The notes under the pieces were generated by a model. The model saw nothing but the letters and a program-made list of their open reading frames with translations, searched no databases and had not been told where the DNA came from. DNA of 64,000 nt from Nitratireductor basaltis (GTDB lineage: Bacteria; Pseudomonadota; Alphaproteobacteria; Rhizobiales; Rhizobiaceae): NCBI RefSeq assembly GCF_000733725.1, contig NZ_JMQM01000002.1, forward strand, positions 558,001 to 622,000, written 5' to 3'. Positions 5,612 to 24,973 of the stretch are shown one piece after another; the first letter of the stretch is position 1, and each line of letters opens with the position of its first letter. The position numbers and the translations under genes are program-made.

Positions 5612-5638
5612 TTCCCGATCCATCGGACCAGATGAACC

Positions 5639-6752: not shown

Positions 6753-6761
6753 GCCGAGAGC

Positions 6762-10070: not shown

Positions 10071-10094
10071 GCTCGCAGCCTTTCACACATATCG

Positions 10095-11655: not shown

Positions 11656-11679
11656 TACAGTCTGGTTGCGAAAGCAAAG

Positions 11680-11711
11680 ACCGCGATGATGGATGCATCA
11701 TCGCGGTTTTT
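11680..11711 (+). terminator. Rho-independent terminator after glmM
   Basis: ACCGCGATGATG pairs perfectly with CATCATCGCGGT across a GATG loop and is followed by five T residues. Confidence 0.9.
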
Positions 11712-11774
11712 CTTTGTCTGCAGCATCCATGGAAAGTGAAGCGCAGAATATCCGTACAACGCGGTAAATCAGAG

Positions 11775-11821
11775 TTAAGTGCGACTTAACCTTTTTCCTT
11801 CAATCTTAACCACGAGCTTAA
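11775..11821 (+). promoter_or_regulatory. CtrA-type boxes upstream of first outer-membrane gene
   Basis: An exact TTAA-N7-TTAA box lies at 11775-11789 (spacer GTGCGAC), and a second pair with an 8-base spacer lies at 11806-11821. TTAA-N7-TTAA is the established CtrA binding consensus of alphaproteobacteria. The boxes end about 32 bp before the gene start, which would suit direct regulation of the promoter. Confidence 0.6.
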
Positions 11822-11852
11822 GTGAAGATAAGGCGGCGTCGAGGGCGCGGCC

Positions 11853-12701
11853 ATGAGGATGGGGTTCATGCTGAAAGCCGTTAAGCATTCTGTTGCCGTG
11901 GGAGCATTGCTCATCACCACGAGCGCCTTTGCTGCCGATCCGTTCGAGCCGCAAGTCGTCGAGATGCCGCCATACCAGCCGCCGCAGGTGGTGGAGAAGT
12001 CGGTGTCCACCGGCAACTGGTATCTTCGCGGTGATGCGGGCTACCACTGGTCCGAACTGCGGGGCATCCATTACTATACCGCTCCGCCCATCCAGGCGCA
12101 GACCTTCGCGACGCATGAGCTGAAGGGCGCGTTCTCGATTGGTGGTGGTGTCGGCTACAAGATCAGCAAGCATTTCCGTACCGATCTGACCGCCGACTAC
12201 TGGCTCAAGGCCGATTTCAACGGCTCGACCACCAACGGCGTTGACGTGTCAAGCGATGCTTCCGCCTATAGCGCGCTGCTTCTGATGGCAAATGCCTATG
12301 TGGATCTGGGCACCTATCACGGCATCACGCCTTATGTTGGTGCAGGTATTGGTGGCGCCTATGTGAAGTGGGATGATCTGGCGAACACGATCGGCACCAC
12401 GACGACCTATCACGAGGGCAATGCCGAATGGCGCTTTGCCTGGGCACTGATGGCCGGTGCTTCCTATTGCCTGACCGACAGCCTCGAGCTTGATGCAGGG
12501 TACCGCTACGCCAATATCTCCGGTGGCGAAATGTTCGGCATCGCAGAAGGTGCCGGTCCTGGCTATGACGAGGGCATGCATGTTCATGAAGCCCGCGCCG
12601 GTCTGCGTTTCGCACTGGGCGGTCAGGGCAGCGCGAACTGCGCTCAGCCACAGGTGGTTTCCTATGAGCCGCCAAGCTTCGAGCCGCCGGTTTACAAGTA
12701 A
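11853..12701 (+). CDS. Outer-membrane beta-barrel protein, porin-like family
   Basis: A probable outer-membrane protein of 282 residues. A signal peptide ends at TTSAFA before ADPFEP. After a proline-rich stretch (MPPYQPPQVVE), the sequence becomes alternating amphipathic strands typical of eight-stranded barrels: WYLRGDAGYHW, GGGVGYKISKHFRTDL, ANAYVDLGTYHGITPYVGAG and LELDAGYRYANISGG. It resembles the Omp31/RopB-like small porin family of Rhizobiales; the exact role is unknown. It shares strand motifs and layout with the next gene, so the two are paralogues. The start at 11853 has GAGGG upstream, and ATG 11868 with AGGAT before it is an equally good alternative. CtrA boxes and a strong terminator bracket it. 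Confidence 0.85.
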   Translation: MRMGFMLKAVKHSVAVGALLITTSAFAADPFEPQVVEMPPYQPPQVVEKSVSTGNWYLRGDAGYHWSELRGIHYYTAPPIQAQTFATHELKGAFSIGGGVGYKISKHFRTDLTADYWLKADFNGSTTNGVDVSSDASAYSALLLMANAYVDLGTYHGITPYVGAGIGGAYVKWDDLANTIGTTTTYHEGNAEWRFAWALMAGASYCLTDSLELDAGYRYANISGGEMFGIAEGAGPGYDEGMHVHEARAGLRFALGGQGSANCAQPQVVSYEPPSFEPPVYK

Positions 12702-12729
12702 TCTCCAGCTCAGGCAGCGAGTAGAAGAG

Positions 12730-12758
12730 CCGTCCGGAGGAAACTCCGGGCGGTTTTT
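12730..12758 (+). terminator. Rho-independent terminator after first outer-membrane gene
   Basis: CCGTCCGGAG pairs with CTCCGGGCGG (one G-T pair) across a GAAA loop, followed by TTTTTCTTT. Confidence 0.88.
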
Positions 12759-12805
12759 CTTTGTTGCTCTTTCCGCACGAAAACAGCGTCAAGACTTCGT
12801 TAGCC

Positions 12806-12833
12806 TTAACCGCGGCTTAACCACCATGGTTAA
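12806..12833 (+). promoter_or_regulatory. CtrA-type box upstream of second outer-membrane gene
   Basis: An exact TTAA-N7-TTAA box (spacer CCGCGGC) lies at 12806-12820, and an inverted GGTTAA half-site follows at 12828-12833, making a TTAACC...GGTTAA palindrome. It begins 90 bp upstream of the gene. The same box type precedes the paralogue, so the two are probably co-regulated. Confidence 0.6.
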
Positions 12834-12895
12834 CAATGGTGGAGACAGCGGCGGGGGGCAACACGGCTCCGTCGCAATTTGCGGAGTAAAACCAG

Positions 12896-13738
12896 ATGCG
12901 CCAGCTTTTCAAAGCCACCTTGCCGGTGGTTCTTCTCGGCGCAGCAAGCGCCCCTCAAGCCCTTGCTGCGGACTATGATCCGCCTCTCGTCATCGATGAG
13001 GTGCCGCAATACAAGCCCGTGGAGATCGGCTCCGGCTGGTATCTGCGTGGTGATATCGGATATGCCGTGAAGACGCGGTCGGGTGGCAACCCCACCTATC
13101 GTAGCTTTGATGGCACCAACTACTACGACAATGAATTCGCTTCCGGCGAGTTTGGCGACGACTTCAGCTTCGGTGCAGGCTTCGGCTATCATTTCAATGA
13201 CATGCTGCGTGGCGATCTGACGGTCGAGCGGATGGAAACCGATTTCTTCGGCTCCACGGTATCTGCAGCTCCCTGTCCTGGTGGGCCGGTTGACACAAGC
13301 TGCCGCTCGGAGGACGGAGCAGAATTCGAAGCCTATTCGGTGCTCGCCAATGCCTATGTCGACCTTGGTACCGTTGTCGGCATCACGCCCTATCTTGGTG
13401 CCGGTATCGGCTACACCTATGTGAGCTGGGACGAACTCAACAACACGACCTATTGCGTGGACGGAGCGGGGAGCTGTACCGGCTTCGTGAATTTTTCCAC
13501 GCCTCATGAAGGCGAGCGCGACTGGCGCTTCACATATGCGCTCATGGCAGGTGTTTCCTATGACATGACCAAGCGCACCAAGCTGGACCTCGGCTATCGC
13601 TACATGCATGTCGATGGTGGCAACATGTTCAATTGGGATGCTGGCAGTGCTGCTGCCGGTGCATCCGGTGTTCAGGGCGAAGACAAGGGCTTTTCCAAGC
13701 ACGAGCTTCGGGTCGGCCTGCGTTTCGACCTCTGGTAG
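12896..13738 (+). CDS. Outer-membrane beta-barrel protein, paralogue of the preceding gene
   Basis: A 280-residue protein with a signal peptide ending in PQALA before ADYDPP. It shows the same arrangement as the upstream gene: a short proline/tyrosine-rich N-terminus (DEVPQYKPVEI), then barrel strands such as GWYLRGDIGYAV, FSFGAGFGYHFNDMLRGDL, ANAYVDLGTVVGITPYLGAG and LDLGYRYMHVDGG, ending in an aromatic-terminated strand (LRVGLRFDLW), the usual Bam recognition signal for outer-membrane insertion. Cysteine pairs (APCPGGPVDTSC, YCVDGAGSC) mark two extracellular-loop insertions absent from the paralogue. The function is unknown beyond a structural or porin-like role. Confidence 0.85.
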   Translation: MRQLFKATLPVVLLGAASAPQALAADYDPPLVIDEVPQYKPVEIGSGWYLRGDIGYAVKTRSGGNPTYRSFDGTNYYDNEFASGEFGDDFSFGAGFGYHFNDMLRGDLTVERMETDFFGSTVSAAPCPGGPVDTSCRSEDGAEFEAYSVLANAYVDLGTVVGITPYLGAGIGYTYVSWDELNNTTYCVDGAGSCTGFVNFSTPHEGERDWRFTYALMAGVSYDMTKRTKLDLGYRYMHVDGGNMFNWDAGSAAAGASGVQGEDKGFSKHELRVGLRFDLW

Positions 13739-13763
13739 TCCGCTCCCAGCGCAAATTTCGAGG

Positions 13764-13788
13764 ACGGGCGCTTTCGGCGCCCGTTTTT
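13764..13788 (+). terminator. Rho-independent terminator after second outer-membrane gene
   Basis: ACGGGCGC pairs with GCGCCCGT across a 5-base loop, followed by TTTTT. It separates the outer-membrane gene from the stranded serC promoter 31 bp downstream. Confidence 0.88.
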
Positions 13789-13818
13789 CGTTCTGGCAGA
13801 CGATGCGTCGTCAAAAGG

Positions 13819-13847
13819 CTTGACGCGGGGAACGCTTGGCCCTATTC
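13819..13847 (+). promoter_or_regulatory. Probable original serC promoter, now separated from serC
   Basis: CTTGAC, 17 bases, CTATTC: a close match to the rhizobial sigma-70 consensus CTTGAC-N17-CTATAT. It ends one base before the 31-bp attL core. Joining the left flank to serC in the uninterrupted chromosome would place this promoter about 56 bp upstream of the serC start. Today it points into the element, antisense to the integrase gene. Confidence 0.6.
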
Positions 13848-13878
13848 CCGTCCGTGGGCCACCCCTCCCCACCGAGGG
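13848..13878 (+). repeat. attL core
   Basis: A 31-bp perfect direct repeat of 23746-23776, beginning CCGTCCGTGGGCC and ending CCACCGAGGG. Identity extends leftward through TATT with one mismatch, giving 36 bp in total. It lies between the stranded serC promoter and the integrase stop codon. Confidence 0.92.
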
Positions 13879-13909
13879 TAAGAGTTCGACATTTTTTTCT
13901 CCTTGTTTT

Positions 13910-14905
13910 TCAACTGCTTGCCACTTTATCGGTTTGTTCTTGTGTCAGATTTGTGCCAAAAACCACATCTGTGACTGTCCGATCTCCCATTGCATGTGCG
14001 TAGGTTTTCACCAGCGTAGTCACGTCTCTCCATCCACCCATCTTGGCAACGGTCTTCACGTCGATACCTGCATGAAGCATCGTCGTCGCGAAGCCGTGCC
14101 GACATGAATGGGGCGAGAGCCGCTTTATACCGGCTCGCGTGATCGTTTTGTCCCATACCTTGCGCACGTTCTCCCTGTGCATGTATCGGAACACACGCTC
14201 GTCAGGCCTACGGTTCGACGGAATGTTGGACAGAGCAGCCACTAGACGTGGCTGCAGGTGAGCGATCCGCTCGTTTCCGACCTTCGTCTGACGGATCGTG
14301 ACCGTCCGGGCCGACAGATCGACGTCACCCCATGTTACAGCGACAGCTTCGCTAATGCGCGCGCCGGTTCCGAACATGAACAGGCACAACGCACCAAGGT
14401 GCGGGGACGCATGGGCCGCGAAAGCTTCTGCCCATTCCAGTGTCGCCGGCTGCTTAATCTTTGCGTCCACCTTAAAACGCTTCACCTTAAGATATGCGCA
14501 CCAGCCGTTTTCTGCAGCGTAGTTGATGACAGCCTGCGTCGGCACAACGGCTTGCCTGTTGCGCGTGGCTGCACTTCCGACCGGGTAGAGTTTGATCGCC
14601 GCCGAACGTACGGCCTGGTCAGTTACGTCTCTCACTAGGGTATCGCGCCAATAGTCTTCGACGCGCTCAAGAAACCGCGTCGGCTTGCCCGCTTCCCGGT
14701 ATGCGATTGCCGCATCTGCGAAGGTCAGCGTTGCGCCCGGTCCATCGAGATGACGCGTCCATTCGCGCTGTTCGCGTTCGGCCGCGATCCGTTGCGCTCT
14801 TGTCTTGTCCTCAGTTTCTGTAGAGCCGCGTATCCGCCTTCCGGCGATCGTACCCCGGTAGTGCCAGATTTTGCCGCCGCGTCGGCGGTAGAGCTTGAGG
14901 GACAT
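13910..14905 (-). CDS. int: Tyrosine-type site-specific integrase
   Basis: The 331-residue integrase of the element, which recombines attP with the 31-bp site in the serC leader. The catalytic set is complete: R183 in GTGARISEA, K208 in RQTKVG, H266 and R269 in HSCRHG, W292 in GGWRD and the nucleophile Y302 in KTYAHAM. The N-terminus (LYRRRGGKIWHYRGTIAGRR) resembles an arm-binding domain and is followed by a core-binding domain (about 60-150). It reads toward attL, and its stop codon is 32 bp from the core. Its first 181 bases overlap the excisionase-like gene in another frame. An 18-bp arm-like site lies inside its 3' end. Confidence 0.96.
   Translation of the reverse strand: MSLKLYRRRGGKIWHYRGTIAGRRIRGSTETEDKTRAQRIAAEREQREWTRHLDGPGATLTFADAAIAYREAGKPTRFLERVEDYWRDTLVRDVTDQAVRSAAIKLYPVGSAATRNRQAVVPTQAVINYAAENGWCAYLKVKRFKVDAKIKQPATLEWAEAFAAHASPHLGALCLFMFGTGARISEAVAVTWGDVDLSARTVTIRQTKVGNERIAHLQPRLVAALSNIPSNRRPDERVFRYMHRENVRKVWDKTITRAGIKRLSPHSCRHGFATTMLHAGIDVKTVAKMGGWRDVTTLVKTYAHAMGDRTVTDVVFGTNLTQEQTDKVASS
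13941..13958 (+). repeat. Candidate integrase arm-type site, left
   Basis: TGTGTCAGATTTGTGCCA, identical to 23629-23646 and in the same orientation. It lies 62 bp inside the attL core and within the int coding sequence. The two copies are read in different frames, so protein conservation does not explain the identity. A shared TGCCACTT also occurs nearby at 13919. Confidence 0.6.
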
Positions 14906-15078
14906 GGTCGGGTCGCCTCCATCAATGTGCGCACGTCGGTTTCTGTTAAAATCATTCGCTTGCCGAACTCACGGCAGGCGCCAAGTGCGCGGGCCAACTG
15001 CCGCAGTGATCGTTCCGAAACACCAAGATGCGCCGCCAAGTCTTCCGGCGTCGTGTAATCCGGCAGTAGCTTTGTCAT
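14725..15078 (-). CDS. Helix-turn-helix DNA-binding protein, candidate excisionase/AlpA-type
   Basis: A 117-residue protein with an N-terminal MerR/excisionase-like helix-turn-helix: YTTPEDLAAHLGVSERSLRQLARALG, then a wing with GKRMILTETDVRTLMEA. The C-terminal tail is polar (GGYAALQKLRTRQERNGSR, VISMDRAQR). ATG 15078 is chosen because GGGAGG lies about 9 bases upstream. The last 181 bp overlap the start of int in a different frame. Such a gene in front of an integrase commonly acts as a recombination directionality factor or as an AlpA-like activator of island excision; that role is inferred from position and fold. It follows portal by 69 bp and is probably in the same operon. Confidence 0.72.
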   Translation of the reverse strand: MTKLLPDYTTPEDLAAHLGVSERSLRQLARALGACREFGKRMILTETDVRTLMEATRPCPSSSTADAAAKSGTTGVRSPEGGYAALQKLRTRQERNGSRPNANSANGRVISMDRAQR

Positions 15079-15147
15079 CGCCTCAGCCTCCCGACAGCAC
15101 GCTGATTTCGCGGAAGCGGTTGCGTCTGCGTGCATCGCCGTTTGCAA

Positions 15148-16380
15148 TCATTCCGCGCTCTCGCCGTTTGCAGAGGTGCCGCGCTCACTGAGCGGCACCA
15201 TGTTGAGGGGCGAAAGGTATTCGCCGCCGCCGTCGATCTCTGGCAGGTTCTCCCAGCCGCGGATTTCGTTCGGGCTGAGCCAACCCCATTCGCGGCCGAT
15301 ACGATAGCTCTCGTAGCGTGCCTTCATGTCGCCGCGCAGGAGGCCGGCGAGGTCGTGCTCTACGAACAGCGTCTTTCGGCTTTGCTCAGGCAGTAGCGCG
15401 ACGTTCATCGCCTGCTCGACGCGCCGCGCCATCGGTGCGAGACAGCGCACAACAAGAGCACGGCTTTCCGCCTCGACGTTGGAATAGGTGCCATGGTCGA
15501 GGATCCCGGCGACGGTTGGCGGAACGCCCCAGATGCGGCAAATATCGAGATTAGTGAGCTTTCGGCTTTCCAGGAACTCGGCGTCCTTCGCCGTCATAGA
15601 GAAGGATTTCCACTCCGCGCCGCCGTCAAGTACGAGCACGTTGGAGGTGACGGTGTTCGCCTCAATCTTGGCTTTGAGCTTGTCGAGAGCGCTATCCTTA
15701 CCTGTTTGCCCCAACATGTTCGGAAATACGAGCGCGCCGGATGGCCGGTTACCCTTCGCCGCCAGCCCCGCCGCCGTATCCTGTTGCGTGAGCGCTAGGT
15801 TGAAGGTCTCGCGGGCGAGTTGGATAGGCGAAAGGCCCATCACGCCGTCGCGGGCAAGCCGATAGCGGAGATGCAGCATCTCCTCCTGCAAGTAGATGCG
15901 CGTTCCCTTCCGACCCGTCACGCGATAGCGCAGCCGGCCGTTTTCTAACTGCTCTACAGCCACGCTGCCGGGGTCGAGCGGGTTGAGCGCCACCACCTGG
16001 CCGCGACCGTTCCATTCGAGTGCCGCATAAGCGTTTCCGGCGATCAAAAGGCTCGTTAGAAGCGCCTCGCGCGCCTCAAAAGCCGTCATGTTGGCGTTCG
16101 GCATGTTGTGCAGGACGCCGTAAAGCGGATGGTCAGTCGCCCGCTCGCGTCCGCCGTTGTCGGTGCGGCGGTAAAGGTTGAGCGGAACCGCCGCAAGCGC
16201 CTGCGATATGATCGAGATGCAAGCCCCGGCCGTCGCAAGGCCGCTGGCGCGGCGCGGATCGACATAGGAACCGATGCCGCCATTAAGGCCGAACCATTCG
16301 GCGATGAAGGGGTCATCCGACTGGATGCGGGTTTCGGTGGCGCGCGTCTCGCGGCCAAGGATGCGGTCAATCCAGCTCAT
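15148..16380 (-). CDS. Phage portal protein, HK97 type
   Basis: The portal dodecamer forms the DNA entry vertex of the capsid and docks the terminase. At 410 residues it is the normal length. Family motifs are visible: YVDPRRASGLATAGACISIISQ-type N-terminus, AVPLNLYRR, HPLYGVLHNMPN, ALLTSLLIAGNAYAAL, RYRVTG, HLRYRLARDGVMGLSPIQLAR, SRKLTNLDICRIWGVPP and the C-terminal GWLSPNEIRGWENLP. Its ATG overlaps the protease stop by 4 bp (ATGA), so the two are translationally coupled. In canonical HK97-type operons the portal precedes the protease and capsid; here it comes last. Confidence 0.94.
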   Translation of the reverse strand: MSWIDRILGRETRATETRIQSDDPFIAEWFGLNGGIGSYVDPRRASGLATAGACISIISQALAAVPLNLYRRTDNGGRERATDHPLYGVLHNMPNANMTAFEAREALLTSLLIAGNAYAALEWNGRGQVVALNPLDPGSVAVEQLENGRLRYRVTGRKGTRIYLQEEMLHLRYRLARDGVMGLSPIQLARETFNLALTQQDTAAGLAAKGNRPSGALVFPNMLGQTGKDSALDKLKAKIEANTVTSNVLVLDGGAEWKSFSMTAKDAEFLESRKLTNLDICRIWGVPPTVAGILDHGTYSNVEAESRALVVRCLAPMARRVEQAMNVALLPEQSRKTLFVEHDLAGLLRGDMKARYESYRIGREWGWLSPNEIRGWENLPEIDGGGEYLSPLNMVPLSERGTSANGESAE

Positions 16381-16910
16381 CGGGACAGCTCCAGAAGTTT
16401 CAGCGCACGCTCGGCATAGGCGCGATGTGGCGCGGCCGACTGGAGCGAGCGGGCTTGAACGATTGTGCCGTCATAGGCCGGCCATGCCAGCACGATGGAG
16501 ATTTCATGCAGGTCCACGCCGCGCAGCTCGCGGCGATCGCCGTCGCGGTGCTCATCAACTGCCGTGAAGCCGAAGGACATGCCGCCCACGTCGCCACGCT
16601 CGGCCAGCGCGAGCACGTCGCGGCCTGCGCTCGTGTCCGGAACGTCGAGCGAGAAGGCCAAGCCCTTCGTGTCCTCGGCCAGCCTGAGTGTGCCGGAGCG
16701 CGTACGGGCGAGCACGCGGCCGGGATCGTGATCGACCAGGGCGAGAATGTCGCGCCGCGCGCGGAGCGAGGCCGCGAAAGCGCCAGGCGCGATCGTCTCC
16801 ATGAATATGCCGCCGATATCGGCCGGATTGTTGAAGGTCGCAGCATAGCCTTCAAGCTTGCGGCCGTTGGCGCGAATTTCCATCGCGAGGGCGCGGCGCT
16901 CGGTTTTCAT
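16377..16910 (-). CDS. HK97-family prohead protease
   Basis: A serine protease that matures the capsid shell by removing scaffolding (delta) domains. In the 177-residue protein, the strand LEGYAATFNNPADIGG, the catalytic histidine region LVDHDPGRVLARTRSGTLRL and the serine motif GGMSFGF are all present, followed by the VDLHEISIVLAWPAY motif typical of the family. It overlaps the connector gene upstream and the portal downstream by 4 bp each, showing a tightly coupled morphogenesis operon. Confidence 0.93.
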   Translation of the reverse strand: MKTERRALAMEIRANGRKLEGYAATFNNPADIGGIFMETIAPGAFAASLRARRDILALVDHDPGRVLARTRSGTLRLAEDTKGLAFSLDVPDTSAGRDVLALAERGDVGGMSFGFTAVDEHRDGDRRELRGVDLHEISIVLAWPAYDGTIVQARSLQSAAPHRAYAERALKLLELSR

Positions 16911-17182
16911 AGGTGAACGCTCCGGTAGGGCTGAATGAGACGGTTAACGCCGATCTGGATTGCGGCGTTTTCGGCGTCCCCGACGGCTTCGCGGTGCTCA
17001 TAAAAATGCGCCACGAGCATCAGAATGGCGTGATCGACGGCTGGCGGAACCGGTGCGGTGGTCGTGTCCACGCCGATGCTTTCGAGGTGGTTGCTTGCCG
17101 CCGCGATCATTTCTTCGATGACGCTATCATCGTCATCGAAGTCGACGCGGCAGTGAGCTTTCGCGGCGGCAAGCGTAACCAT
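16907..17182 (-). CDS. Head-tail connector protein (gp6-like)
   Basis: A 91-residue, all-helical protein of the phage gp6-like connector family: start VTLAAAKAHCRVDFDDDD, then a helix EEMIAAASNHLESIG, and the conserved ILMLVAHFYEHREAVG followed by GVNRLIQPYR. In HK97-type phages this protein forms the adaptor ring under the portal where the tail docks. Its presence in an element without tail genes suggests that the particle presents a docking site to a tail supplied in trans (inference). It lies 3 bases after the capsid stop. Confidence 0.85.
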   Translation of the reverse strand: MVTLAAAKAHCRVDFDDDDSVIEEMIAAASNHLESIGVDTTTAPVPPAVDHAILMLVAHFYEHREAVGDAENAAIQIGVNRLIQPYRSVHL

Positions 17183-17185
17183 GGC

Positions 17186-18430
17186 TCAAACCTCCGCGAA
17201 GGCAAACGCTTCGGTGTGGCGCACGGCCACGTCGGCGTCGAGGAACGCATGCAGAAGCGCGCCGCCATTGCTGGCCACGTCCGGGTGGTATGGGTTGATG
17301 AGAATGTCCACTGCGCTCCAGTACCCAAGGTAGAGTTGCCCCCACTGGCCATAGATCAGCGCCGACTTATCGGACGCACCGCCTATGTCGGCGGGAACCT
17401 GAGTGCTGACCTCGACGCGTCCGCCATGGAACAGCTCGGAAGCCGGGATCACGTGGCCATCTGCGTCCTTCGTCTTACGCCCGATCTGCATGACGTTGGG
17501 ATTGGTCAGGAACGCAGCCGTGCCGGTCACGTCGTCGAGCTCAAGCGCAGCGATAAGGTTCGCTGTCGTGTCGGAGAAGTCGGCTTCGGTTGTGACCTTT
17601 TCGACACCAGGCGTGTTAAGGATGCCAAGCGGCTCCGGTCCCGTTCCGCTGCCGTTGATGGCGGCACGGTCTAACGCTTGAGCCAAGAGGAAACCAAGAT
17701 CACGGCGCAGAAGATCCTCTATAGCCGTGTTCGACTGGAGGATGAGCCGGCGCGAAAGCCGATATTCTCCGGTCACGGTTTTCGGCGCCATGGACACCTT
17801 TGAGAATGTTGCGGTCGAGCGGGTGGCGTTACCGTCCTCGGCTACCCAAGCCGTGGAGCCGCTGGCGGCGAGGTTTGGCAGATCAAGGAAGCTGGAAAGG
17901 CCGCGCATCACGGTCGCGCCCATGCTCTCGACGCGGAGAGCCGGCCGGAAACGATCCGCCACGGCCGCAAGCTGCGTGGCGACAGTGTATCCGCCATCCG
18001 CAGGCGTGCCGACCGTCTGCGATCGGGCTTCGCCCAGGATGATTTCGGACGGGACGGCCACGTGAATGCCGCTGCCGCTTCGCGCCTCGCGACCCTTCGT
18101 AAGTTCCTGGTGCACTTCCGCCTCGCGCCCGGTCAGCCGGCCGGAAAGCGCGCCGTTGATTGCAGCCGCCAGCGAATAACTGCGCAGCTCGCGCCGCATT
18201 TCGCCGCCGTCGACAGGCTCGCCCTGCGCCTCGAGGCGTTCATAGGCAGCAAGCTTTTCGGCGCGGTCGACCTGGTCGCCAAGCGCCCGCACTTCCTTGT
18301 CGAGCGCGTCGAACTGCTTGCGCTCACCGTCGTCAAGGTCGCGGTTGTCGTTCGACGCTTTCTCGTTGATCGTGCGCATTTCCGCGATTTTCGCGGCGCG
18401 CTGTTCCTTCAAGTCCTGCAGTCTCGGCAT
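17186..18430 (-). CDS. HK97-type major capsid protein
   Basis: The shell protein, 414 residues. An N-terminal coiled-coil delta domain (LQDLKEQRAAKIAEMRTIN, then a charged helix to about residue 75) acts as a built-in scaffold and is expected to be cut by the prohead protease. The mature fold begins around 110 and carries hallmark segments: GGYTVATQLAAVADRFRPAL, STAWVAEDGNATRS, YRLSRRLILQSNTAIEDLL, ALDRAAINGSGTGPEPLGILN and the C-terminal LLHAFLDADVAVRHTEAFAF. I place the start at ATG 18430 because GGAGA sits 6 bases upstream; further in-frame codons up to 18463 lack one. A 52-residue gene ends one base before this start. Confidence 0.94.
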   Translation of the reverse strand: MPRLQDLKEQRAAKIAEMRTINEKASNDNRDLDDGERKQFDALDKEVRALGDQVDRAEKLAAYERLEAQGEPVDGGEMRRELRSYSLAAAINGALSGRLTGREAEVHQELTKGREARSGSGIHVAVPSEIILGEARSQTVGTPADGGYTVATQLAAVADRFRPALRVESMGATVMRGLSSFLDLPNLAASGSTAWVAEDGNATRSTATFSKVSMAPKTVTGEYRLSRRLILQSNTAIEDLLRRDLGFLLAQALDRAAINGSGTGPEPLGILNTPGVEKVTTEADFSDTTANLIAALELDDVTGTAAFLTNPNVMQIGRKTKDADGHVIPASELFHGGRVEVSTQVPADIGGASDKSALIYGQWGQLYLGYWSAVDILINPYHPDVASNGGALLHAFLDADVAVRHTEAFAFAEV

Positions 18431-18431
18431 G

Positions 18432-18590
18432 TCAGTCTCCATCTTGGGGATTAGCCGCCTCACGGCGGGTTAAGGGTCCATCGGGCCGGGTAGACCCGGC
18501 ACAGGGAAACGGCGTCTCACGACGCGAAAGCACGGTGCGAATGATGCGCAGCGAATCGAGGACGGGGAGAAGAGGGCTGTGGCAAGTCAT
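18432..18590 (-). CDS. Small unknown protein coupled to the capsid gene
   Basis: A 52-codon frame that I found by reading the gap. Its ATG overlaps the stop of the upstream gene by 4 bp (ATGA), and its TGA ends one base before the capsid ATG, with the capsid ribosome site inside its last codons. The product begins MTCHSPLLPVLDSLRIIR and is arginine/proline-rich, with no recognised domain. The exact coupling on both sides argues for a translated gene, or at least a translational relay that loads ribosomes onto the capsid cistron. It contains the inverted repeat CCGGGT/ACCCGG near its middle. Confidence 0.6.
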   Translation of the reverse strand: MTCHSPLLPVLDSLRIIRTVLSRRETPFPCAGSTRPDGPLTRREAANPQDGD

Positions 18591-18883
18591 GCGTGCCCTT
18601 TCGCCGGCAACCCTTCGAAAGCGCGCTTTCTGACAGCGAAATTCACGACATTGGCAACTTCGCTAGCCAACTTTTGCTCTGGACAGCCAAGATCGCGAAG
18701 CTCTTGTGCGACACCGGCCCATATGCCTTCGCGTAGCTTGATGAAATGCGCCGCGAATTTTGCGTCGTCGGTTTCAAGCTGGCGAGCGCGCTGCATCGCT
18801 GTGAGACAAGCCGCCTCGTAGCGATTGGCGATTTCGACCATGTCCGTTGGCGCAACTCCAGTCCATTCCTTTCGGTCGCTCAT
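18587..18883 (-). CDS. Unknown element protein, 98 residues
   Basis: A helical, acidic protein (EIANRYEAACLTAMQRARQLETDD, LREGIWAGVAQELRDLGCP, LASEVANVVNFAVRKRAF) with no recognised motif. It is in the operon leading to the capsid, overlaps the preceding gene by 4 bp (18880-18883) and the following 52-residue gene by 4 bp. In a capsid-first operon, candidate roles are a capsid-size or scaffolding factor or a small terminase subunit, the one packaging protein not otherwise found; both are speculative. Confidence 0.6.
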   Translation of the reverse strand: MSDRKEWTGVAPTDMVEIANRYEAACLTAMQRARQLETDDAKFAAHFIKLREGIWAGVAQELRDLGCPEQKLASEVANVVNFAVRKRAFEGLPAKGHA

Positions 18884-19554
18884 TTGTCGCCCTCGGTGCC
18901 GGCAATGAGATTGGCAACGGCGCGCAGTAATTTGCTGTCGAACTCGGCGGTGAGGTTCTTCCCGGTGCGGAAACGCCGCGTCTCGCGCTCGAACGCCTCT
19001 TCGGCAACATTCCGGGCCGCAGGCTCACCGCCGCTGACGCTATCCATTACGGCGGCAAGCGACGGGTGATGAAAGCTGTGCCGACCGTCGAGCACCCTTA
19101 GCTGCGCTGCCGCCCCACTACGCGGAAGGATTAGCCAGACAAACGCAGAAGGGAAATGCGGCCCCTCGGGGAATTTCTCCTTCCAGCGCGCCGACGCAAC
19201 GGCGTCGATCTTGCCCGTGCCCAACCATTCTAATGTTTTTGCAAGTGCCAGGTCGAGCGTCGGAGCTTCCTCCTTGGTCAAAGGGAAATCGGCGTCCATG
19301 CCTCTTTCGCCGGAGTGCACCAGATTGCTGAATACAAACTCCGCGTCCGCCGCGCGCTCTGGATGATCGGTGGCGGCGCATGCGATCAGGAAGCGGGCCG
19401 CGTCGAGAAATGTCATGTGCGCCGCGCCACGGCCACGGCCGGCCTGAGAGATGCGGCCCGCCTCGCGCAGACGGCGCGCGAAGATGCTCAACGTCCCGCG
19501 CGTGTCGAGCCGCTGTGCTTCGCACGTCGCTACCAGTTCGCTCAAAAGTGCCAT
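18880..19554 (-). CDS. Unknown element protein with N-terminal helical DNA-binding-like domain
   Basis: A 224-residue protein. The N-terminal 60 residues (LLSELVATCEAQRLDTRG, SIFARRLREAGRISQAGRGR, AAHMTFLDAARFLIACAA) resemble a winged-helix/sarcin-like regulatory module that recurs in alphaproteobacterial prophages; the rest is not recognised. ATG 19554 is chosen because GAGG sits 8 bases upstream; the open frame continues to 19995, but that extension shadows the neighbouring gene. A 12-bp inverted repeat (19567-19599) lies immediately upstream and could be its operator. It heads the capsid-portal-int operon, so it may be an operon regulator or an early packaging protein. Confidence 0.65.
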   Translation of the reverse strand: MALLSELVATCEAQRLDTRGTLSIFARRLREAGRISQAGRGRGAAHMTFLDAARFLIACAATDHPERAADAEFVFSNLVHSGERGMDADFPLTKEEAPTLDLALAKTLEWLGTGKIDAVASARWKEKFPEGPHFPSAFVWLILPRSGAAAQLRVLDGRHSFHHPSLAAVMDSVSGGEPAARNVAEEAFERETRRFRTGKNLTAEFDSKLLRAVANLIAGTEGDK

Positions 19555-19566
19555 ATTGAAACCTCG

Positions 19567-19599
19567 GCCATTTATCGGAACGATATGCCGATAAATGGC
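19567..19599 (-). promoter_or_regulatory. Inverted repeat upstream of the capsid operon
   Basis: GCCATTTATCGG and its perfect complement, separated by 9 bases. A nested TATCG-GAA-CGATA pair (19573-19585) adds a third half-site of the TATCG/CGATA type. It lies 13-45 bp from the start codon at 19554. It could be an operator for the element's regulator or a 5'-UTR hairpin. Confidence 0.5.
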
Positions 19600-19621
19600 G
19601 GAAGTCAACTTCATTTGTGTT

Positions 19622-20074
19622 TCATGCAAATGAAAGGTTCTTACGCAATGTACTTGCGTCGTAACATTCGTCATTGGTGAGCCACACGAAGCCCATTTCC
19701 ACTTCGATTGTGCTTCGCCAGTGGCCAGGTTGAAGGTCGTTGAGCGCAGACCGCGCGACGGCCAGGGCCTGTTCGATACGTACCCGCGGCGGCACATGGC
19801 GCGGCTGCACCGTGTAAATTGGTATGTCGTAGCGGGCAGCTGACACGAGGGTTTGCCAATTGCCTCCGTCGAGCTTGGCAAGTAGCATCGACATTTCCGC
19901 AGCAAGATCGTGAACGTGAAGAGCGATTTCGTTTTGTGTGAGCGGCGTGGCGGCCGCCATCCTCGGCACTGCCAGAATGGCAGTGCTCGCCGCACCTGCT
20001 AGTACTGAGCGGCGGGATAGGTTCTCACCAGCAGGCATAGCTTCGCCGGCCGTGCGAACGAGGTTGTTCAGCAT
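19622..20074 (-). CDS. Unknown protein with a twin-arginine signal
   Basis: A 150-residue protein. Residues about 19-41 (LSRRSVLAGAASTAILAV, then AAA cleavage-like residues before TPLTQNEIALHVHDLA) match the Tat motif S-R-R-x-F/V-L and a hydrophobic core, so export of a folded protein is predicted. The mature part is mostly helical with VSAARYDIPIYTV and EMGFVWLTNDECYD; I recognise no family. It is transcribed away from the Cro/C1-type gene, with its start about 67 bp away, so it is the first gene under the divergent switch. A secreted cargo gene in a satellite could alter the host envelope; this is inference. Confidence 0.6.
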   Translation of the reverse strand: MLNNLVRTAGEAMPAGENLSRRSVLAGAASTAILAVPRMAAATPLTQNEIALHVHDLAAEMSMLLAKLDGGNWQTLVSAARYDIPIYTVQPRHVPPRVRIEQALAVARSALNDLQPGHWRSTIEVEMGFVWLTNDECYDASTLRKNLSFA

Positions 20075-20111
20075 GGTAACGCTCCATTAATTGTGCTAAT
20101 CGCACTATGAC

Positions 20112-20157
20112 GGTGACAAATGCACTATAAGGAAAAACTTCATGGTGACAAGTGCAC
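20112..20157. promoter_or_regulatory. Direct-repeat operator of the element's regulatory switch
   Basis: GGTGACAAATGCAC (20112-20125) and GGTGACAAGTGCAC (20144-20157) are 14-bp direct repeats with one mismatch, 32 bp apart, roughly three helical turns. The second begins on the last base of the regulator's own ATG. A GTGC-taatc-GCAC inverted repeat lies just upstream (about 20093-20105), and a TATAAG -10-like box at 20126 falls between the repeats. This suits an autoregulating Cro/C1-type repressor controlling divergent promoters. Confidence 0.55.
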
Positions 20158-20366
20158 AAATCAGAGCCGCGCGCGGTTTGCTGAATTGGACCGTTCGAGA
20201 TTTAGCGCAGAGATCAGGTGTTCATCGGAACACTGTCACTCGTATCGAAACCGAAGCTACGGCTCCAGGTCACGCCATGACTGCTGTGCAAGCAGCCCTT
20301 GAGGCTGCCGGCGTAGAGTTTATCCCTGAGAACGGAAGTGGCCCCGGTGTGAGACTCCGCAAATGA
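20142..20366 (+). CDS. Cro/C1-type (XRE) helix-turn-helix regulator
   Basis: A 74-residue single-domain protein: IRAARGLLNWTVRDLAQRSGVHRNTVTRIE is a clear XRE helix-turn-helix, ending in a short beta tail (GVEFIPENGSGPGVRLRK) common in Rhizobiales. It is the only part of the element read rightward, with its partner gene, and is divergent from the capsid operon, the position of master repressors such as Stl in phage-inducible islands. AAGGA lies 10 bases before the ATG. It overlaps the next gene by 4 bp. Which signal or helper protein would relieve it cannot be seen. Confidence 0.85.
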   Translation: MVTSAQIRAARGLLNWTVRDLAQRSGVHRNTVTRIETEATAPGHAMTAVQAALEAAGVEFIPENGSGPGVRLRK

Positions 20367-20596
20367 AAGACAGTGAGAAAGAAAAGATCAAGCTTAGGGC
20401 GAATTATCTTAACGGCATTTCGCTAATTTTCATGGGACTCGGGGGGCTGGGGCCAATGTTCTTAGCCATGCAGACTATGGACTTCGAGCGTATCGTATTT
20501 GCCCTTAGCTTCCTTGGTGCAGGTATCTTTTCTAGCTGGGAACTTCACACATTGGCGCAGAAGGAACTAAACAAGCTGAAAGAAGACGACGCCTAA
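20363..20596 (+). CDS. Small two-helix membrane protein coupled to the XRE regulator
   Basis: 77 residues with a charged N-terminus (MKDSEKEKIKLRANYLNG), two membrane helices (about 18-37, SLIFMGLGGLGPMFLAM, and about 43-60, RIVFALSFLGAGIFSSW) and a lysine-rich C-terminus. It starts on the ATGA overlap with the XRE gene, so the pair is one operon expressed in the integrated state. Candidate roles are superinfection exclusion, a toxin held by the regulator, or membrane sensing; none is proven. It converges on the terminase gene with a 4-bp tail-to-tail overlap. Confidence 0.65.
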   Translation: MKDSEKEKIKLRANYLNGISLIFMGLGGLGPMFLAMQTMDFERIVFALSFLGAGIFSSWELHTLAQKELNKLKEDDA

Positions 20597-22218
20597 TCGA
20601 TCAACTCAGCCAAGCATGCCGGAAGCGCCTCGGGCTCATGTCGCTTCGAGATGCTAAGCGCCATCGCCAACGCAACGAGCCCATCAATCCGGCCTGCGGC
20701 TTTCGATTTATCAAGTTTGCGACCACCTGCGGGATCGCGTGTAACGACCGCGTTCGCGGCGCACATATTTAGCACCGGGTTCCCGCCATGCCGCAAGAGC
20801 TTCTCGGCAACGCATCGTTCCAGCATGTCAACGGCGGGTGAGAAATCTTTGAAGCCCTGGCCGAACGGCGTCAGAGGCAGATTCGCCCCGATCAGTCCCA
20901 ACTCGCGTTTCAGATCCTCAATGCGCCAACGATCATAGGCGAGAGCCTGCATATTGTAGCGCGCAGCCGCATTCGCCAGCACGTCCGCGACAAAGCCCGG
21001 ATCGATCGTGGCACCCGGGATGAGCGTAATAAGCCCCTGCTTTGCCCATACGTCGTACGGAACGCGATCCTCATTCGAGCGATCCGCGATGTTGGCTTCC
21101 GGCATGAAGAACCGCGCCGCCACGTCGAAGTGGCCTTGATCATCAGGAAACACCATCACAAAGGCCGTAAGGTCACGCGTCGCTCCCAGATCGAGGCCCG
21201 CATAGCACTCGCGCCCGTCGAGCGAAGGAAGGTCGACCGTGCCGGCACAGGCATCCCATTCAGCTTTGTGGATGAAGCGCGATACTGCCGAAACACGTTG
21301 GTTGAGGATCAAGTTGCGGAAGGCCGCTTCCTTCGATGGCACAAGCCGCGCCTGAGCGGCCTGCCGCTTCACGTCATCGAACGAGCGGAAATCTCCGATC
21401 GCAGGGTTCGCCAGCTCCCAGGTTGTCGGCTCCCACGGATCGGCGTCGGACGGCGCGGCGAACAGTGTCAGGTGGAAGGACGGATCGTCCAGTTCTCCGG
21501 CCTGCACCTTCAGCCCGTAGTCGATCAGTTCCGACATAACCGCATGGTCCGCTGCTGCCTGCGTGGAAATCACCATCATCAGCGGGTTGTCCCGCGCACC
21601 CGAAGCGGTGTCCATGGCGTCGAACAGGGCACGGTTCGGTGCGCTGCCAAGCTCGTCATAGACAACGAAGGACGGCGATAGGCCAAGCTTGCTCCCGGCA
21701 TCGGCTGACAGGGCGGCATAGATCGAGCCCTCACCATCGCCACTGAGAACTTCGATCTGCTTCGTGAAGCGCACCACATTGCACCGATCGTCAAGCTCCG
21801 GATGGCCCTTCAGGATCGCGACCATCTCCGCGAACAGCTTCGCCGCCTGGTCACGGGTCAGGGCGCACGAATAGACTTCACCACGCGGCTCAGCTTCCGG
21901 CCCCAGCAGATGGCAGAGAGCCAGCGCCGCTGCGAGCTGCGTCTTGCCGTTTTTGCGCCCCATGCTGAGTACTGCCGTGCGCACGGGTCGGTTGCCTTCG
22001 GCATCATCGGCGTAGACGGCGCGGATGAAGTCGCATTGCCACGGCCGCAGCTTCATCTTGGTGCCGGCGAGCTTGCCAGCCGTGATCGGCAGGTCTTCGC
22101 AGAACTCGATCACGCGTTGATCGCGCGTCAGGCCGGGTTCATTCCACGGCGCGACCTCGCGAACCTCGATCTGACCCCGCTCCGAAAGCGGCTTCGCGCC
22201 TACGCCTCTAAGTGCCAT
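20593..22218 (-). CDS. Terminase large subunit, HK97-like
   Basis: An ATP-driven DNA-packaging motor with a nuclease domain, 541 residues (full length). Walker A is GRKNGKTQ (about residues 87-94), the adenine/Walker B segment is FVVYDELG, and a coupling segment VISTQAAADH follows. The C-terminal nuclease carries CYAGLDLGATRDLTAFVMVF with the first metal-binding aspartate and DPGFVADVLANAA further on. It resembles the Terminase_1 family of HK97-type cos phages. It is separated from the capsid operon by the divergent regulatory genes instead of preceding portal. HNH lies 90 bp upstream; no small terminase is recognisable between them. Confidence 0.94.
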   Translation of the reverse strand: MALRGVGAKPLSERGQIEVREVAPWNEPGLTRDQRVIEFCEDLPITAGKLAGTKMKLRPWQCDFIRAVYADDAEGNRPVRTAVLSMGRKNGKTQLAAALALCHLLGPEAEPRGEVYSCALTRDQAAKLFAEMVAILKGHPELDDRCNVVRFTKQIEVLSGDGEGSIYAALSADAGSKLGLSPSFVVYDELGSAPNRALFDAMDTASGARDNPLMMVISTQAAADHAVMSELIDYGLKVQAGELDDPSFHLTLFAAPSDADPWEPTTWELANPAIGDFRSFDDVKRQAAQARLVPSKEAAFRNLILNQRVSAVSRFIHKAEWDACAGTVDLPSLDGRECYAGLDLGATRDLTAFVMVFPDDQGHFDVAARFFMPEANIADRSNEDRVPYDVWAKQGLITLIPGATIDPGFVADVLANAAARYNMQALAYDRWRIEDLKRELGLIGANLPLTPFGQGFKDFSPAVDMLERCVAEKLLRHGGNPVLNMCAANAVVTRDPAGGRKLDKSKAAGRIDGLVALAMALSISKRHEPEALPACLAELID

Positions 22219-22308
22219 CCGCTCTTGCCCTTCATGCGTTTAAGTATCTGAAACTAAGTATTTTCCCAACTCCCCCGTCGGTCCTCGGCCCCCCGGTCTC
22301 CCGTGATT

Positions 22309-22632
22309 TCAGGCACCCCCACCATGCCAAGCATCACCGGGATCAATGGGATTACCGTTCACGTCGAAGCCTTTGAAGCGTCGGCCAGTTGATGCACGGT
22401 CGGGCCGATCAACCGCGTTCGTCTTTTCATTGTGGCAGCGCTCGCAAAGGCTCATCAGCCCATCCAGTGGCGGAAACGGCTCGCCGCCAGCTTTAATCGC
22501 CTTTACATGATCGACAGCTACGGCAGGCACAAAGCGTCCGCGCAGCTCGCATGCGTAGCACCCCGGATCGCTCGCCAGCTTCGCCAGCCTGAGCCGCTTC
22601 CAAATTCGTGTGTTGTAGGGCCAATCAGCCAC
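22309..22632 (-). CDS. HNH endonuclease of the packaging module
   Basis: A 107-residue HNH nuclease: a first zinc pair in PGCYACELRG, the HNH core VAVDHVKAIKAGG, and the second zinc pair in LCERCHNEKTN. HNH proteins next to HK97-type terminases help cut cos DNA during packaging. The start is GTG 22632 because AAAGGAGG lies 6 bases upstream, one of the best ribosome sites in the element; the frame is open to 22719 but that part overlaps the previous gene. It overlaps the upstream gene by 8 bp. Confidence 0.88.
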   Translation of the reverse strand: MADWPYNTRIWKRLRLAKLASDPGCYACELRGRFVPAVAVDHVKAIKAGGEPFPPLDGLMSLCERCHNEKTNAVDRPDRASTGRRFKGFDVNGNPIDPGDAWHGGGA

Positions 22633-23350
22633 GGTGCACCTCCTTTGCCATCGCAGGTTGGGCGCGGCTTCGCCGTCGCTCCCTATTCCTGAGCCCCTTT
22701 GCACCGTCTCCACTGGCATGATCGTGTCCGTTCTCTGCTCCCTGACACGTGCCAGCGATTGTTTTTTGATCTTGGTTCTTCGTGGGGTGGAACGTTTTGA
22801 ACCCTATCGATCGCGCCAAGGAGGGGCCCCGTTTGAGCCAAGCGAGCCACTCCTTCGAGCTGACATGCACCAGATTGGTGAGGTTCTTCTGCCCTTTGCG
22901 CGGTCGGGGCTCGACAATCACATGGCCGCGCGCTCTCGCCTCGCGTAGTGCGTTCTGAACGGTCGTACGGCTCACGCCAGCGACGGCCGCAATCCGATCA
23001 AGCGGCAGGTCGCAAACGCCGTGGTGCTTTACCTCACCGGCGACGACGGCCAGGGCGGCGCGCTCACCTTCGGTGTAGTGATGCCGGATCGTATCGGGCA
23101 GGCTGCTTGATCCGCCCAACATGCGGCGGCGTTTGACAGACGCGGCGCGATCCGGTGAGCGCTGCCATTTCCGATTGAACCGCGCTGTCAGGCGGCGGGA
23201 ATGGCGATTGAGGGGATTAGGCGGGCGGCTCGGCCCCTTCGTACGGATCGCGCCTGACATATAGGCTTCGACCAACTCGGGGTCTGAGACGCTGGCCTTG
23301 ACCAGTCGCGAATTGAGCAACGCGGCACTGACTTCGAGGGGCGCACTCAT
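22625..23350 (-). CDS. Winged-helix DNA-binding protein, candidate replication or regulatory factor
   Basis: A 241-residue, strongly basic protein. The middle part has a helix-turn-helix: TEGERAALAVVAGEVKHHG, DLPLDRIAAVAGVSRTTVQNALREARARG, then a wing with VIVEPRPRKGQKNLTNLV. A conserved RRRMLGGSSSLP precedes it. Similar proteins recur in rhizobial prophages and plasmids in replication-related positions, but I see no primase or helicase motif, so a replication initiator role is only a possibility. The N-terminal 70 residues are poorly ordered and basic. It overlaps the genes on both sides (4 bp and 8 bp), making a terminase-side operon. Confidence 0.7.
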   Translation of the reverse strand: MSAPLEVSAALLNSRLVKASVSDPELVEAYMSGAIRTKGPSRPPNPLNRHSRRLTARFNRKWQRSPDRAASVKRRRMLGGSSSLPDTIRHHYTEGERAALAVVAGEVKHHGVCDLPLDRIAAVAGVSRTTVQNALREARARGHVIVEPRPRKGQKNLTNLVHVSSKEWLAWLKRGPSLARSIGFKTFHPTKNQDQKTIAGTCQGAENGHDHASGDGAKGLRNRERRRSRAQPAMAKEVHRG

Positions 23351-23679
23351 CGCTGCACCCCGTTCGCTTCATGGATCGCCTGGACGGCTTCAACTGCCGA
23401 CAGGCCAAACATTGCCCTGAGCGTCGGCACGATTGGACGCGCACAAACTTCGCGATTTTCCGCGTACCAGCGTGCAGCGCGCATTGCGGCACTAGCACCC
23501 TCGTGGTAGATACTGTCCTCGAAAGCGCGGCAGTGCTTTTCTATCGTATCGCCGCCGTTCCGGGGACCAGCCGGGACGGCGGTTTTCTTTTCTGAGCCAT
23601 CAATAGCGCGAACAGAAAGCGAACTGCCTGTGTCAGATTTGTGCCACTTCCTCTCGCGCGTTCCATCTTCGTTCGGCAC
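23347..23679 (-). CDS. Unknown element protein next to attR
   Basis: The frame ends in AAMRAARWYAENREVCARPIVPTLRAMFG followed by LSAVEAVQAIHEANG, a short helical C-terminal domain that recurs in small rhizobial phage proteins; its function is unknown. The 4-bp overlap with the next gene supports the 3' end. The 5' end is uncertain: GTG 23679 is offered here (110 residues), while a GTG at 23760 would begin inside the att core and overlap the serC leader. Neither has a good ribosome site. The 18-bp arm-like repeat lies within the first third of the frame. Confidence 0.5.
   Translation of the reverse strand: MPNEDGTRERKWHKSDTGSSLSVRAIDGSEKKTAVPAGPRNGGDTIEKHCRAFEDSIYHEGASAAMRAARWYAENREVCARPIVPTLRAMFGLSAVEAVQAIHEANGVQR
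23629..23646 (+). repeat. Candidate integrase arm-type site, right
   Basis: An exact copy of TGTGTCAGATTTGTGCCA at 13941-13958, same orientation, 99 bp inside the attR core. Confidence 0.6.
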
Positions 23680-23716
23680 GATCGTGCATGAACCCGCATG
23701 GCAATCGCTTATGGGG

Positions 23717-23745
23717 CTTGCGGTTTTCGAGGGCTTCGGGTATTG
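23717..23745 (+). promoter_or_regulatory. Element-borne promoter now upstream of serC
   Basis: CTTGCG, 17 bases, GTATTG, ending exactly at the attR core. It has the same spacing and position relative to the core as the stranded native promoter at attL (CTTGAC-N17-CTATTC). The TATT of the -10 region is shared, and the -35 is weaker. It would restore serC transcription after integration. Confidence 0.5.
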
Positions 23746-23776
23746 CCGTCCGTGGGCCACCCCTCCCCACCGAGGG
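23746..23776 (+). repeat. attR core, within the serC leader
   Basis: A 31-bp perfect copy of 13848-13878. It ends 27 bp before the serC ATG, so the crossover preserves the leader sequence. Confidence 0.92.
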
Positions 23777-23803: not shown

Positions 23804-24973
23804 ATGAGCACACTCCCCATGCCGGACAAGCGTCCGGAAAACCCCCGTTTTTCTTCTGGTCCCTGCGCGAAGCGTCCCGGTTGGTCGCTCGATGCGCTTT
23901 CCGATGCCCCGCTCGGTCGTTCGCACCGCGCCAAGGTTGGCAAGGAAAAGCTGGCTCGCGCCATTCAGCTGACGCGCGAAGTGCTGCAGGTCCCCGATGA
24001 CTACCGCATCGGCATTGTTCCCGCTTCCGACACCGGTGCCGTCGAGATGGCGCTCTGGTCGCTTCTGGGCGAACGCGGTGTCGACATGGTCGCCTGGGAA
24101 AGCTTCGGCTCCGGTTGGGTGACCGATGTGGTGAAGCAGCTCAAGCTTGATGATGTCCGCCGCATCGAGGCCGATTACGGCAAGCTTCCGGACCTCTCCA
24201 CGATCGATTTCTCCCGCGACGTCGTCTTCACCTGGAACGGCACCACCTCCGGTGTCCGGGTTCCGGATGGTGATTTCATTCCCGCGGACCGCCAAGGCCT
24301 GACCATCTGCGATGCCACCTCCGCGGCTTTCGCGCAGCGCCTGGCATTCGACAAGCTCGATGTTGTCACCTTCTCCTGGCAGAAAGTGCTTGGCGGCGAG
24401 GCCGCACATGGCGTGCTCATCCTCAGCCCGCGCGCGGTTGAGCGGCTGGAAAGCTATTCGCCGGCATGGCCGCTGCCGAAGATCTTCCGTCTCACCAAGG
24501 GCGGCAAGCTGATCGAAGGCATCTTCAAGGGCGAGACCATCAACACGCCCTCCATGCTGTGCGTCGAGGACTATATCGATGCGCTTGAATGGGCGCAGCG
24601 CGAAGGTGGGCTCGACGGGCTCATCAAGCGGGCGGATGCCAATTTCGCCGTCATCGACCGTTTCGTCGAGAGCCATGCCTGGATTGCGCATCTGGCGGAA
24701 GATCCCGCCACGCGTTCCAACACTTCCGTCTGCCTGACCATCGTCGCCCCCGAGATCGAGGCCCTTCCCGCTGACGAGAAGGCCGCCTTCGCCAAGGGCA
24801 TGGTCTCCCTTCTGGACAAGCAGGATGTCGCCTATGACATCGGCGCCTATCGCGACGCACCTTCCGGGCTTCGCATCTGGGCCGGTGCCACGGTCGAGAC
24901 TTCCGATCTGGAAGCGCTGATGCCCTGGCTCGACTGGGCGTTCCAGACGCAAAAGGCCGCGCTCAAGGCCTGA
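23804..24973 (+). CDS. serC: Phosphoserine aminotransferase SerC
   Basis: Transfers an amino group from glutamate to 3-phosphohydroxypyruvate, step two of serine synthesis. The 389-residue protein is the alphaproteobacterial SerC type. The PLP lysine is K194 in [15 protein letters not shown]. Other family features are [12 protein letters not shown] at the N-terminus, [20 protein letters not shown], and [11 protein letters not shown]. The ATG follows GAGAGGA by 9 bases. serA follows after 142 bp, so the two enzymes of the pathway sit together. Its original promoter was cut off by the element. Confidence 0.97.

Follow-up and report, generated by a model that had tools for sequence, protein, structure and literature searches.

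What is a 9.9-kb integrated element that encodes a phage head and its packaging genes and no recognizable tail? We asked this question of a locus in Nitratireductor basaltis (Rhizobiaceae, Alphaproteobacteria), within a stretch of 64,000 nucleotides referred to here as the window (NCBI RefSeq assembly GCF_000733725.1, contig NZ_JMQM01000002.1, positions 558,001 to 622,000 of the forward strand). The element occupies positions 13843-23776 of the window, between an Omp gene (12896-13738) and serC (23804-24973), both named by reading their translated proteins. Our data indicate that it is probably an integrated capsid-forming phage satellite, one that would work like the capsid-forming phage-inducible chromosomal islands (cf-PICIs) and take its tails from a helper. 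An earlier reading of this DNA, made from the letters and open reading frames only (the sequence-only reading), had proposed such a satellite, and this proposal is supported by a recurrent tail-less gene plan, purifying selection, the grouping of the large terminase subunits (TerL), and bounded copies in other genomes.

A 36-bp direct repeat bounds the element on both sides; its two copies differ by one mismatch, agree exactly over their last 31 bp, and have a spacing of 9898 bp. This exact core is the 31-bp attachment (att) pair of the sequence-only reading, whose coordinates were correct within 5 bp. From the serC end, the minus strand encodes u137, a winged-helix protein, an HNH endonuclease, and TerL. 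A plus-strand pair follows, an HTH_3 regulator and a small membrane-like protein, after which the minus strand continues with a protein bearing a twin-arginine translocation (Tat)-like signal, u224, u98, the major capsid protein (MCP), a gp6-like connector, an S78 protease, portal, an excisionase-like protein, and the integrase. All frames are open with little space between them, as had been described. Each of the 15 genes was scanned singly against Pfam and PHROGs. The integrase, HK97 capsid, connector, protease, portal, TerL, and HNH genes named earlier were each matched by these profiles; portal, capsid, and TerL, for which a profile search had been proposed, were all recovered by Pfam, and TerL by PHROGs and PDB as well. 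An excisionase-like gene is present too, although its profile matches are weak. At E<=0.1, none of the 15 genes matched a family of tail, baseplate, tape-measure, or lysis proteins, which agrees with the earlier report that such genes are lacking; tail remnants in the unknown frames, proposed as a sign of a deleted prophage, were likewise not found at this limit. The divergent regulator pair, the Tat-signal-like protein, u98, u224, u137, and the winged-helix protein are additions to that reading. Judged by eye, the R..HxxR..Y set of the integrase and the Walker A and B motifs of TerL are kept.

Is this plan confined to one genome? With the window's genome counted each time, MCP matches (E<=1e-20) were found in 20 of 394 genomes of the family, while TerL matches were found in 45 of 397 genomes of the order at E<=1e-60, tailed prophages included, and in 5 of 385 genomes of the class at E<=1e-110. 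A common plan of HNH, TerL, regulator and cargo, MCP, connector, protease, portal, and integrase is present in the window and in loci L022 (Rhizobium sp. Root1334), L026, L028-L031, L033-L035, and L084-L087; no connector was found in L028, L084, or L086, and the L026 integrase had no BLAST match. Gene order varies in L025, where the connector follows the portal, and in L036, where the integrase lies at the other end and HNH follows the portal. The same head order also occurs outside the order Rhizobiales, within the class, in L123, where hardly any cargo separates TerL from MCP, and in L124, which yielded no connector. Among 20 IMG/VR contigs with a related TerL, which are partly non-independent (L134 and L135 have 10.7 kb in common at 100%, and L136 has the same sequence as L031), the order TerL-MCP-protease-portal holds in 19, and L147 consists of TerL pieces alone. 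The sequence-only reading had suggested a search for the same tail-less element at other rhizobial sites, and it was found in many genera and at several att sites.

Cargo between relatives varies. The N-terminal ~70 residues of u224 are found again in several relatives, though not all, and the HTH_3 regulator is found again on the strand opposite to the head genes. PADLOC matched 5 families among 123 non-core frames of the relatives, with no evident defence system. The regulator and membrane-protein pair (20142-20596) also occurs in the divergent element L037 at 43% and 66% identity; since capsid and portal there are only ~35% identical, the pair may move as a unit. L119 and L122 contain canonical-order head modules, a frame of 750-1214 aa after TerL, and integrases, and possibly represent another small phage or satellite type.

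Flanking repeats delimit the window element and L022, L028, L029, L033, L034, L035, L037, and L041, as well as L036, L084, L085, L086, and L030, the repeats of L030, L028, L037, and L086 being short (11-16 bp). These fourteen elements average 10,666 bp (standard deviation 434). With four further bounded copies, L031 (10.18 kb, from a split gene transfer agent [GTA] gene), L131 (10.66 kb), L132 (10.12 kb), and L135 (10.07 kb), all 18 span 9.9-11.2 kb. Left out of the 18 are L038 (truncated, 4.3 kb between repeats), L039 and L026 (repeats of 13 and 14 bp, both uncertain), and L087, in which no convincing flanking repeat was found. Integration sites among bounded copies comprise serC, tRNA-like sites, and the GTA terL; the 50-54-bp repeats of L036, L041, and L085, like those of L033-L035, resemble tRNA 3' ends when read by eye. 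The serC site of the window is also occupied in L028, L029, and L100, and the window integrase is 72% identical to that of L029 and 54% to that of L028. In the stretches examined, all 15 other genomes of the genus contain a single att-like copy, which precedes serC by ~60 bp. In 10 of the 15, this 1.5-kb flank also includes an Omp homologue, so that the site is empty there; the flank leaves the other five undecided. Two loci differ in content. L041 is a 10.6-kb relative with a 50-bp repeat, portal, protease, capsid, and a frame of ~800 aa, in which TerL and HNH were not found. L135:743-11805 contains two adjacent family elements, with att-like copies 10,066 bp apart and 93% identity over 471 bp around HNH; a reading of L135 as a circular free form was rejected since the copies ~10.07 kb apart are those of two neighbouring elements.

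We found that the tail-less elements also group by their terminases. In a TerL tree of 32 rows, built from TerLs called at >=400 aa and thus without the broken L028 TerL, 18 of the 20 rows labelled tail-less fall on one side of a branch with a Shimodaira-Hasegawa-like approximate likelihood ratio of 98 (quick search); L037 and L039 lie outside. The tail labels need 3 changes on this tree, which none of 500 shuffles equalled, with L083, L088, and L100 (truncated) labelled by gene order and not all 12 canonical-order rows having a proven tail. Eighteen tail queries from Agrobacterium phage Rivra and the host prophage described below matched just L089, L093-L095, L097, and L098 of 38 loci, and none of the 20 IMG/VR contigs at E<=1e-5. 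The reach of these queries is limited, as 5 of the 11 canonical-order loci (L089-L099) escape them. Non-core frames of the relatives (123 of 145 called, excluding frames below ~60 aa and some likely antisense frames) were surveyed for family matches, with 25 of 74 PHROG and 25 of 32 Pfam families covered, so the tail search in relatives is incomplete. The sequence-only reading held that a tail module found at the corresponding place in relatives would make the element a deleted prophage; none of the 20 IMG/VR contigs matched any of these tail queries, with the exception elsewhere of a tail-tube gene in L036, weighed below.

Does selection act on these genes? Against up to six relatives, the ratio of nonsynonymous to synonymous substitution rates (dN/dS) was 0.056-0.13 (TerL), 0.12-0.19 (portal), 0.16-0.23 (protease), and 0.13-0.22 (MCP). 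It is looser at 0.16-0.41 for the connector, 0.27-0.43 for the winged-helix protein, and 0.44-0.63 for u137. These ratios are rough, since most pairs have a dS close to 1 or higher. Purifying selection acts on TerL, portal, protease, and MCP. Together, these data suggest that a lineage has been maintained, rather than that a single prophage lost its tail. The features of the element are collected below.

Features of the N. basaltis element, with positions in the window and the matches or remarks for each
Feature	Position	Strand	Matches and remarks
Attachment repeat, integrase side	13843..13878	none	31-bp exact core 13848-13878
Tyrosine integrase, 331 aa	13910..14905	-	PF00589 1.6e-28
Excisionase-like HTH protein, overlaps integrase gene	14725..15078	-	HTH_17 5.9e-4; PHROG excisionase 1.7e-4; conserved in L028, L029, L032
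Portal	15148..16380	-	PF04860 3.7e-99
Prohead protease, S78 family	16377..16910	-	PF04586 2.4e-40
gp6-like head-tail connector (Ad1)	16907..17182	-	PF05135 1.5e-13; phrog_40 5.3e-29
HK97-fold MCP, 414 aa from ATG at 18430	17186..18430	-	PF05065 2.9e-27
u98, small protein	18587..18883	-	No family above cut-off; 71% in L040
u224, upstream of capsid	18880..19554	-	58% in L131
Tat-signal-like cargo protein, 150 aa	19622..20074	-	Signal judged by eye; no family above cut-off
HTH_3 regulator, divergent from head operon	20142..20366	+	PF01381 7.3e-8
Small membrane-like protein paired with regulator	20363..20596	+	66% in divergent element L037
HK97-type TerL, 541 aa	20593..22218	-	PF20441 6.3e-37; PF03354 2e-19; phrog_9 1.4e-137; structure 6z6d 6e-121
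HNH endonuclease beside TerL	22309..22632	-	PF01844 3.1e-6; phrog_2323 1.1e-22
Winged-helix protein, possible replication or regulatory role	22625..23350	-	phrog_15967 1.6e-44, family without assigned function
u137, serC end	23347..23760	-	53-66% identity in L028-L031
Attachment repeat, serC side	23741..23776	none	31-bp exact core 23746-23776

How might such an element propagate? We propose that the Cro/CI-type regulator would keep it silent at attB upstream of serC, and that helper infection or induction would lead the integrase and excisionase-like protein to excise it, with replication to follow. Capsid protein, protease, and portal would assemble a small HK97-type head, into which the element's own TerL and HNH would load ~10 kb of its DNA, a load suggested by gene content together with near-constant size. 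The gp6-like connector would then form the neck to which the stopper and tail of a helper siphophage attach. The near-constant size of 10-11 kb yields a testable prediction on capsid size.

A helper of this kind may reside in the same genome. Its three Phage_portal genes belong to the element, to a GTA, and, at C1:1402819, to a tailed prophage (G000:C1:1389708-1427308; L101-L103) that measures ~37.6 kb between its outermost fibre frame and its integrase, the ends being unmapped. This prophage encodes a tape measure, a major tail protein (tail tube), a tail terminator, a distal tail protein, and fibres, and it is a plausible helper. The head-closure protein Hc1 of three relatives, L022, L030, and L031, is 39-52% identical to that of the host prophage and 43-48% to that of phage Rivra, while against the same phages their portals reach 25-36%, their TerLs 21-29%, and their MCPs have no match in 5 of 6 comparisons. 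An Hc1 closer than the head proteins to tailed phages is what tail borrowing predicts.

Several observations weigh against a helper-dependent satellite. The window element itself has no Hc1, which several relatives possess, and a gp6-like connector instead, so it would need the stopper of its helper. The connectors of L022, L030, and L031 have no match in the host prophage or Rivra, and their proteases are 47-52% identical to those of the canonical-order loci L094 and L095, equal to the Hc1 likeness; since protease is a head gene, ordinary phage mosaicism could give the same picture. The near-complete carrier genome G313 contains no second Phage_portal gene and no GTA marker, and hence no such helper is resident there. 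Direct terminal repeats, looked for as a sign of a free form, are absent in the IMG/VR contigs L023-L027 and L129-L148 (L131, L135, and L136 are partial and uninformative). L036:8625-9071, in an otherwise tail-less element with a 54-bp repeat, is a tail-tube gene upstream of the capsid (PF06199, 5.4e-12). Individual copies are also damaged: the L028 TerL has one internal stop, so decay does happen in single copies, the capsid frame of L032 (genome G332) holds a stop, L038 is truncated, no TerL was found in L041, and L040 is listed among the broken relatives.

Parts of the expected machinery were also not clearly recognized. No separate small terminase (TerS) was recognized among the 15 element genes with Pfam and PHROGs, and when six small element proteins were compared by profile with six TerS proteins, of which four owe their name to position alone, the probability was at most 1.8%. 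The HNH protein has a secondary match (2.6e-8) to phrog_4581, annotated as small terminase, over its HNH region, and other TerS-annotated families weakly matched the excisionase-like gene at 0.029 and the HTH regulator at 0.025. We considered u224 as a small terminase, which was not supported: its AlphaFold model has a mean predicted local distance difference test score of 58 and an uninformative fold, it has no PDB match at E<=0.001, and its TerS profile probability is 1.8%. No primase is recognizable in the window element. Several relatives contain a primase-helicase or DUF5906, and the window element has the winged-helix protein alone, which besides phrog_15967 weakly matches replication-initiator families. 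AlpA is a hallmark of PICIs, and the excisionase-like gene, with its weak HTH_17 match, does not match the AlpA family.

Could the element instead be a defective prophage, its tail and lysis genes deleted, that is drifting to decay? Its head genes are of the ordinary HK97 type, relatives L028, L038, and L040 are broken, and L036 retains a tail-tube gene. We nevertheless regard this explanation as very unlikely, given a tail-less content and near-constant size in many genera at several att sites, purifying selection, and one TerL group for 18 of the 20 tail-less rows. The head-gene order also differs from that of tailed relatives, and so the elements are not just tailed relatives minus a tail. 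An HK97-like tailed prophage as such was rejected, as no tail module with a tape measure was matched in the profile scans. It is highly improbable, too, that the element is an autonomous minimal phage with a short tail or adsorption protein drawn from its cargo genes, although several frames lack a family, G313 has no resident helper by two markers, and the Streptomyces satellite MiniFlayer is described as having its own short tail fibres (PMC10690885). One would expect a tail to be conserved along with the head, whereas the cargo differs among relatives; the Tat-signal-like gene has no homologue among the relative loci compared at that stage, and no lysis family is matched.

Tails might also be borrowed from GTAs, instead of or besides phages. 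The window element as a GTA in its own right, with an RcGTA-type terminase and tail cluster and without an integrase, was rejected, since it carries an integrase and an HK97-type TerL and the GTA marker lies elsewhere in the genome (G000:C1:1705492). Twelve of the 15 carrier genomes have a GTA marker gene, and the element lies inside the GTA terL in three carriers; the Hc1 of L039 is closest to a GTA Hc1 (36%), while L033-L035 have another type. Part of the window connector is 40% identical to a GTA protein, and the connector's weak PDB matches are to phage and GTA adaptors alike (E 1.2e-4 to 0.07). However, the connector scores as well or better against L096 and L098, the window element lies outside the GTA, and the Hc1 proteins of L022, L030, and L031 (the latter two in a GTA terL) match siphophages and have no match in the G000 GTA. 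We therefore hold GTA tails to be a slim prospect, and a helper-phage satellite remains our preferred reading.

The insertions into GTA terL raise a further possibility. The gene is split at one and the same place (MC-D/E-F) in genomes G002 (L031, positions 3975-14169; L136 is identical) and G196 (L030, the whole contig) and in the IMG/VR provirus L131 (8691-19359), and in all three a part matching the last 44 residues of GTA terL is left beyond the element's integrase. Integrases of related type abut the same terL end, with other, larger cargo, in G393 and G097 (L118, L119); those of G167, G131, and G016 have no GTA terL adjoining. We infer that GTA packaging would be disabled while an element occupies this gene. 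It is conceivable, although unlikely, that the family, with a head-gene order of its own, is partly specialized on GTAs, sitting in the GTA terL, silencing packaging, and bringing its own head and terminase, with heads that dock GTA or phage tails. From these insertions, mobile elements seem to target GTAs and perhaps to turn them off, which bears on GTA retention or loss.

How does the element compare with known systems? Among the titles and abstract openings listed for open-licence papers, none names a cf-PICI from Alphaproteobacteria or an element inserted into a GTA terminase, which is not proof of absence. HK97-like temperate phages (HK97, Rivra, L089-L099) share homologous TerL (45% to HK97), portal, protease, and connector; in HK97 and Rivra the order is TerS-TerL-portal-protease-MCP-connector-Hc1-tail, whereas here TerL and MCP are separated by the regulator and cargo, and the head genes follow the order MCP-connector-protease-portal. 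The Streptomyces satellites MulchRoom and MiniFlayer are described as having their own head and packaging genes, and MulchRoom an integrase and a helper-like tail; they differ in that both encode TerS, carry direct terminal repeats, and exploit virulent phages (PMC10690885). The cf-PISP satellite-plasmid TG54 of Vibrio crassostreae resembles the element in capsid, portal, protease, adaptor, HNH, and terminase, and differs in being reported as episomal and without an integrase; it is classified as a cf-PICI, its capsid clustering with those of gammaproteobacterial cf-PICIs (PMC13230959). As described, cf-PICIs are defined by capsid, protease, portal, connectors, both terminase subunits, HNH, and helper tails (PMC10690885), and their capsids form three separate radiations (PMC11389934). 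Like cf-PICIs such as EcCIEDL933, the element is integrated and tail-less and encodes MCP, protease, portal, connector, TerL, HNH, and integrase; unlike them, it has no separate TerS that we could find and an alphaproteobacterial host, and its placing of regulator, cargo, and head genes may differ too, the comparison being one of described features. If our reading is true, helper-tail piracy would reach into Alphaproteobacteria, in a broad lineage preserved by selection. By the likeness of its features, the element probably works like a cf-PICI, and we do not file it as a member of that group.

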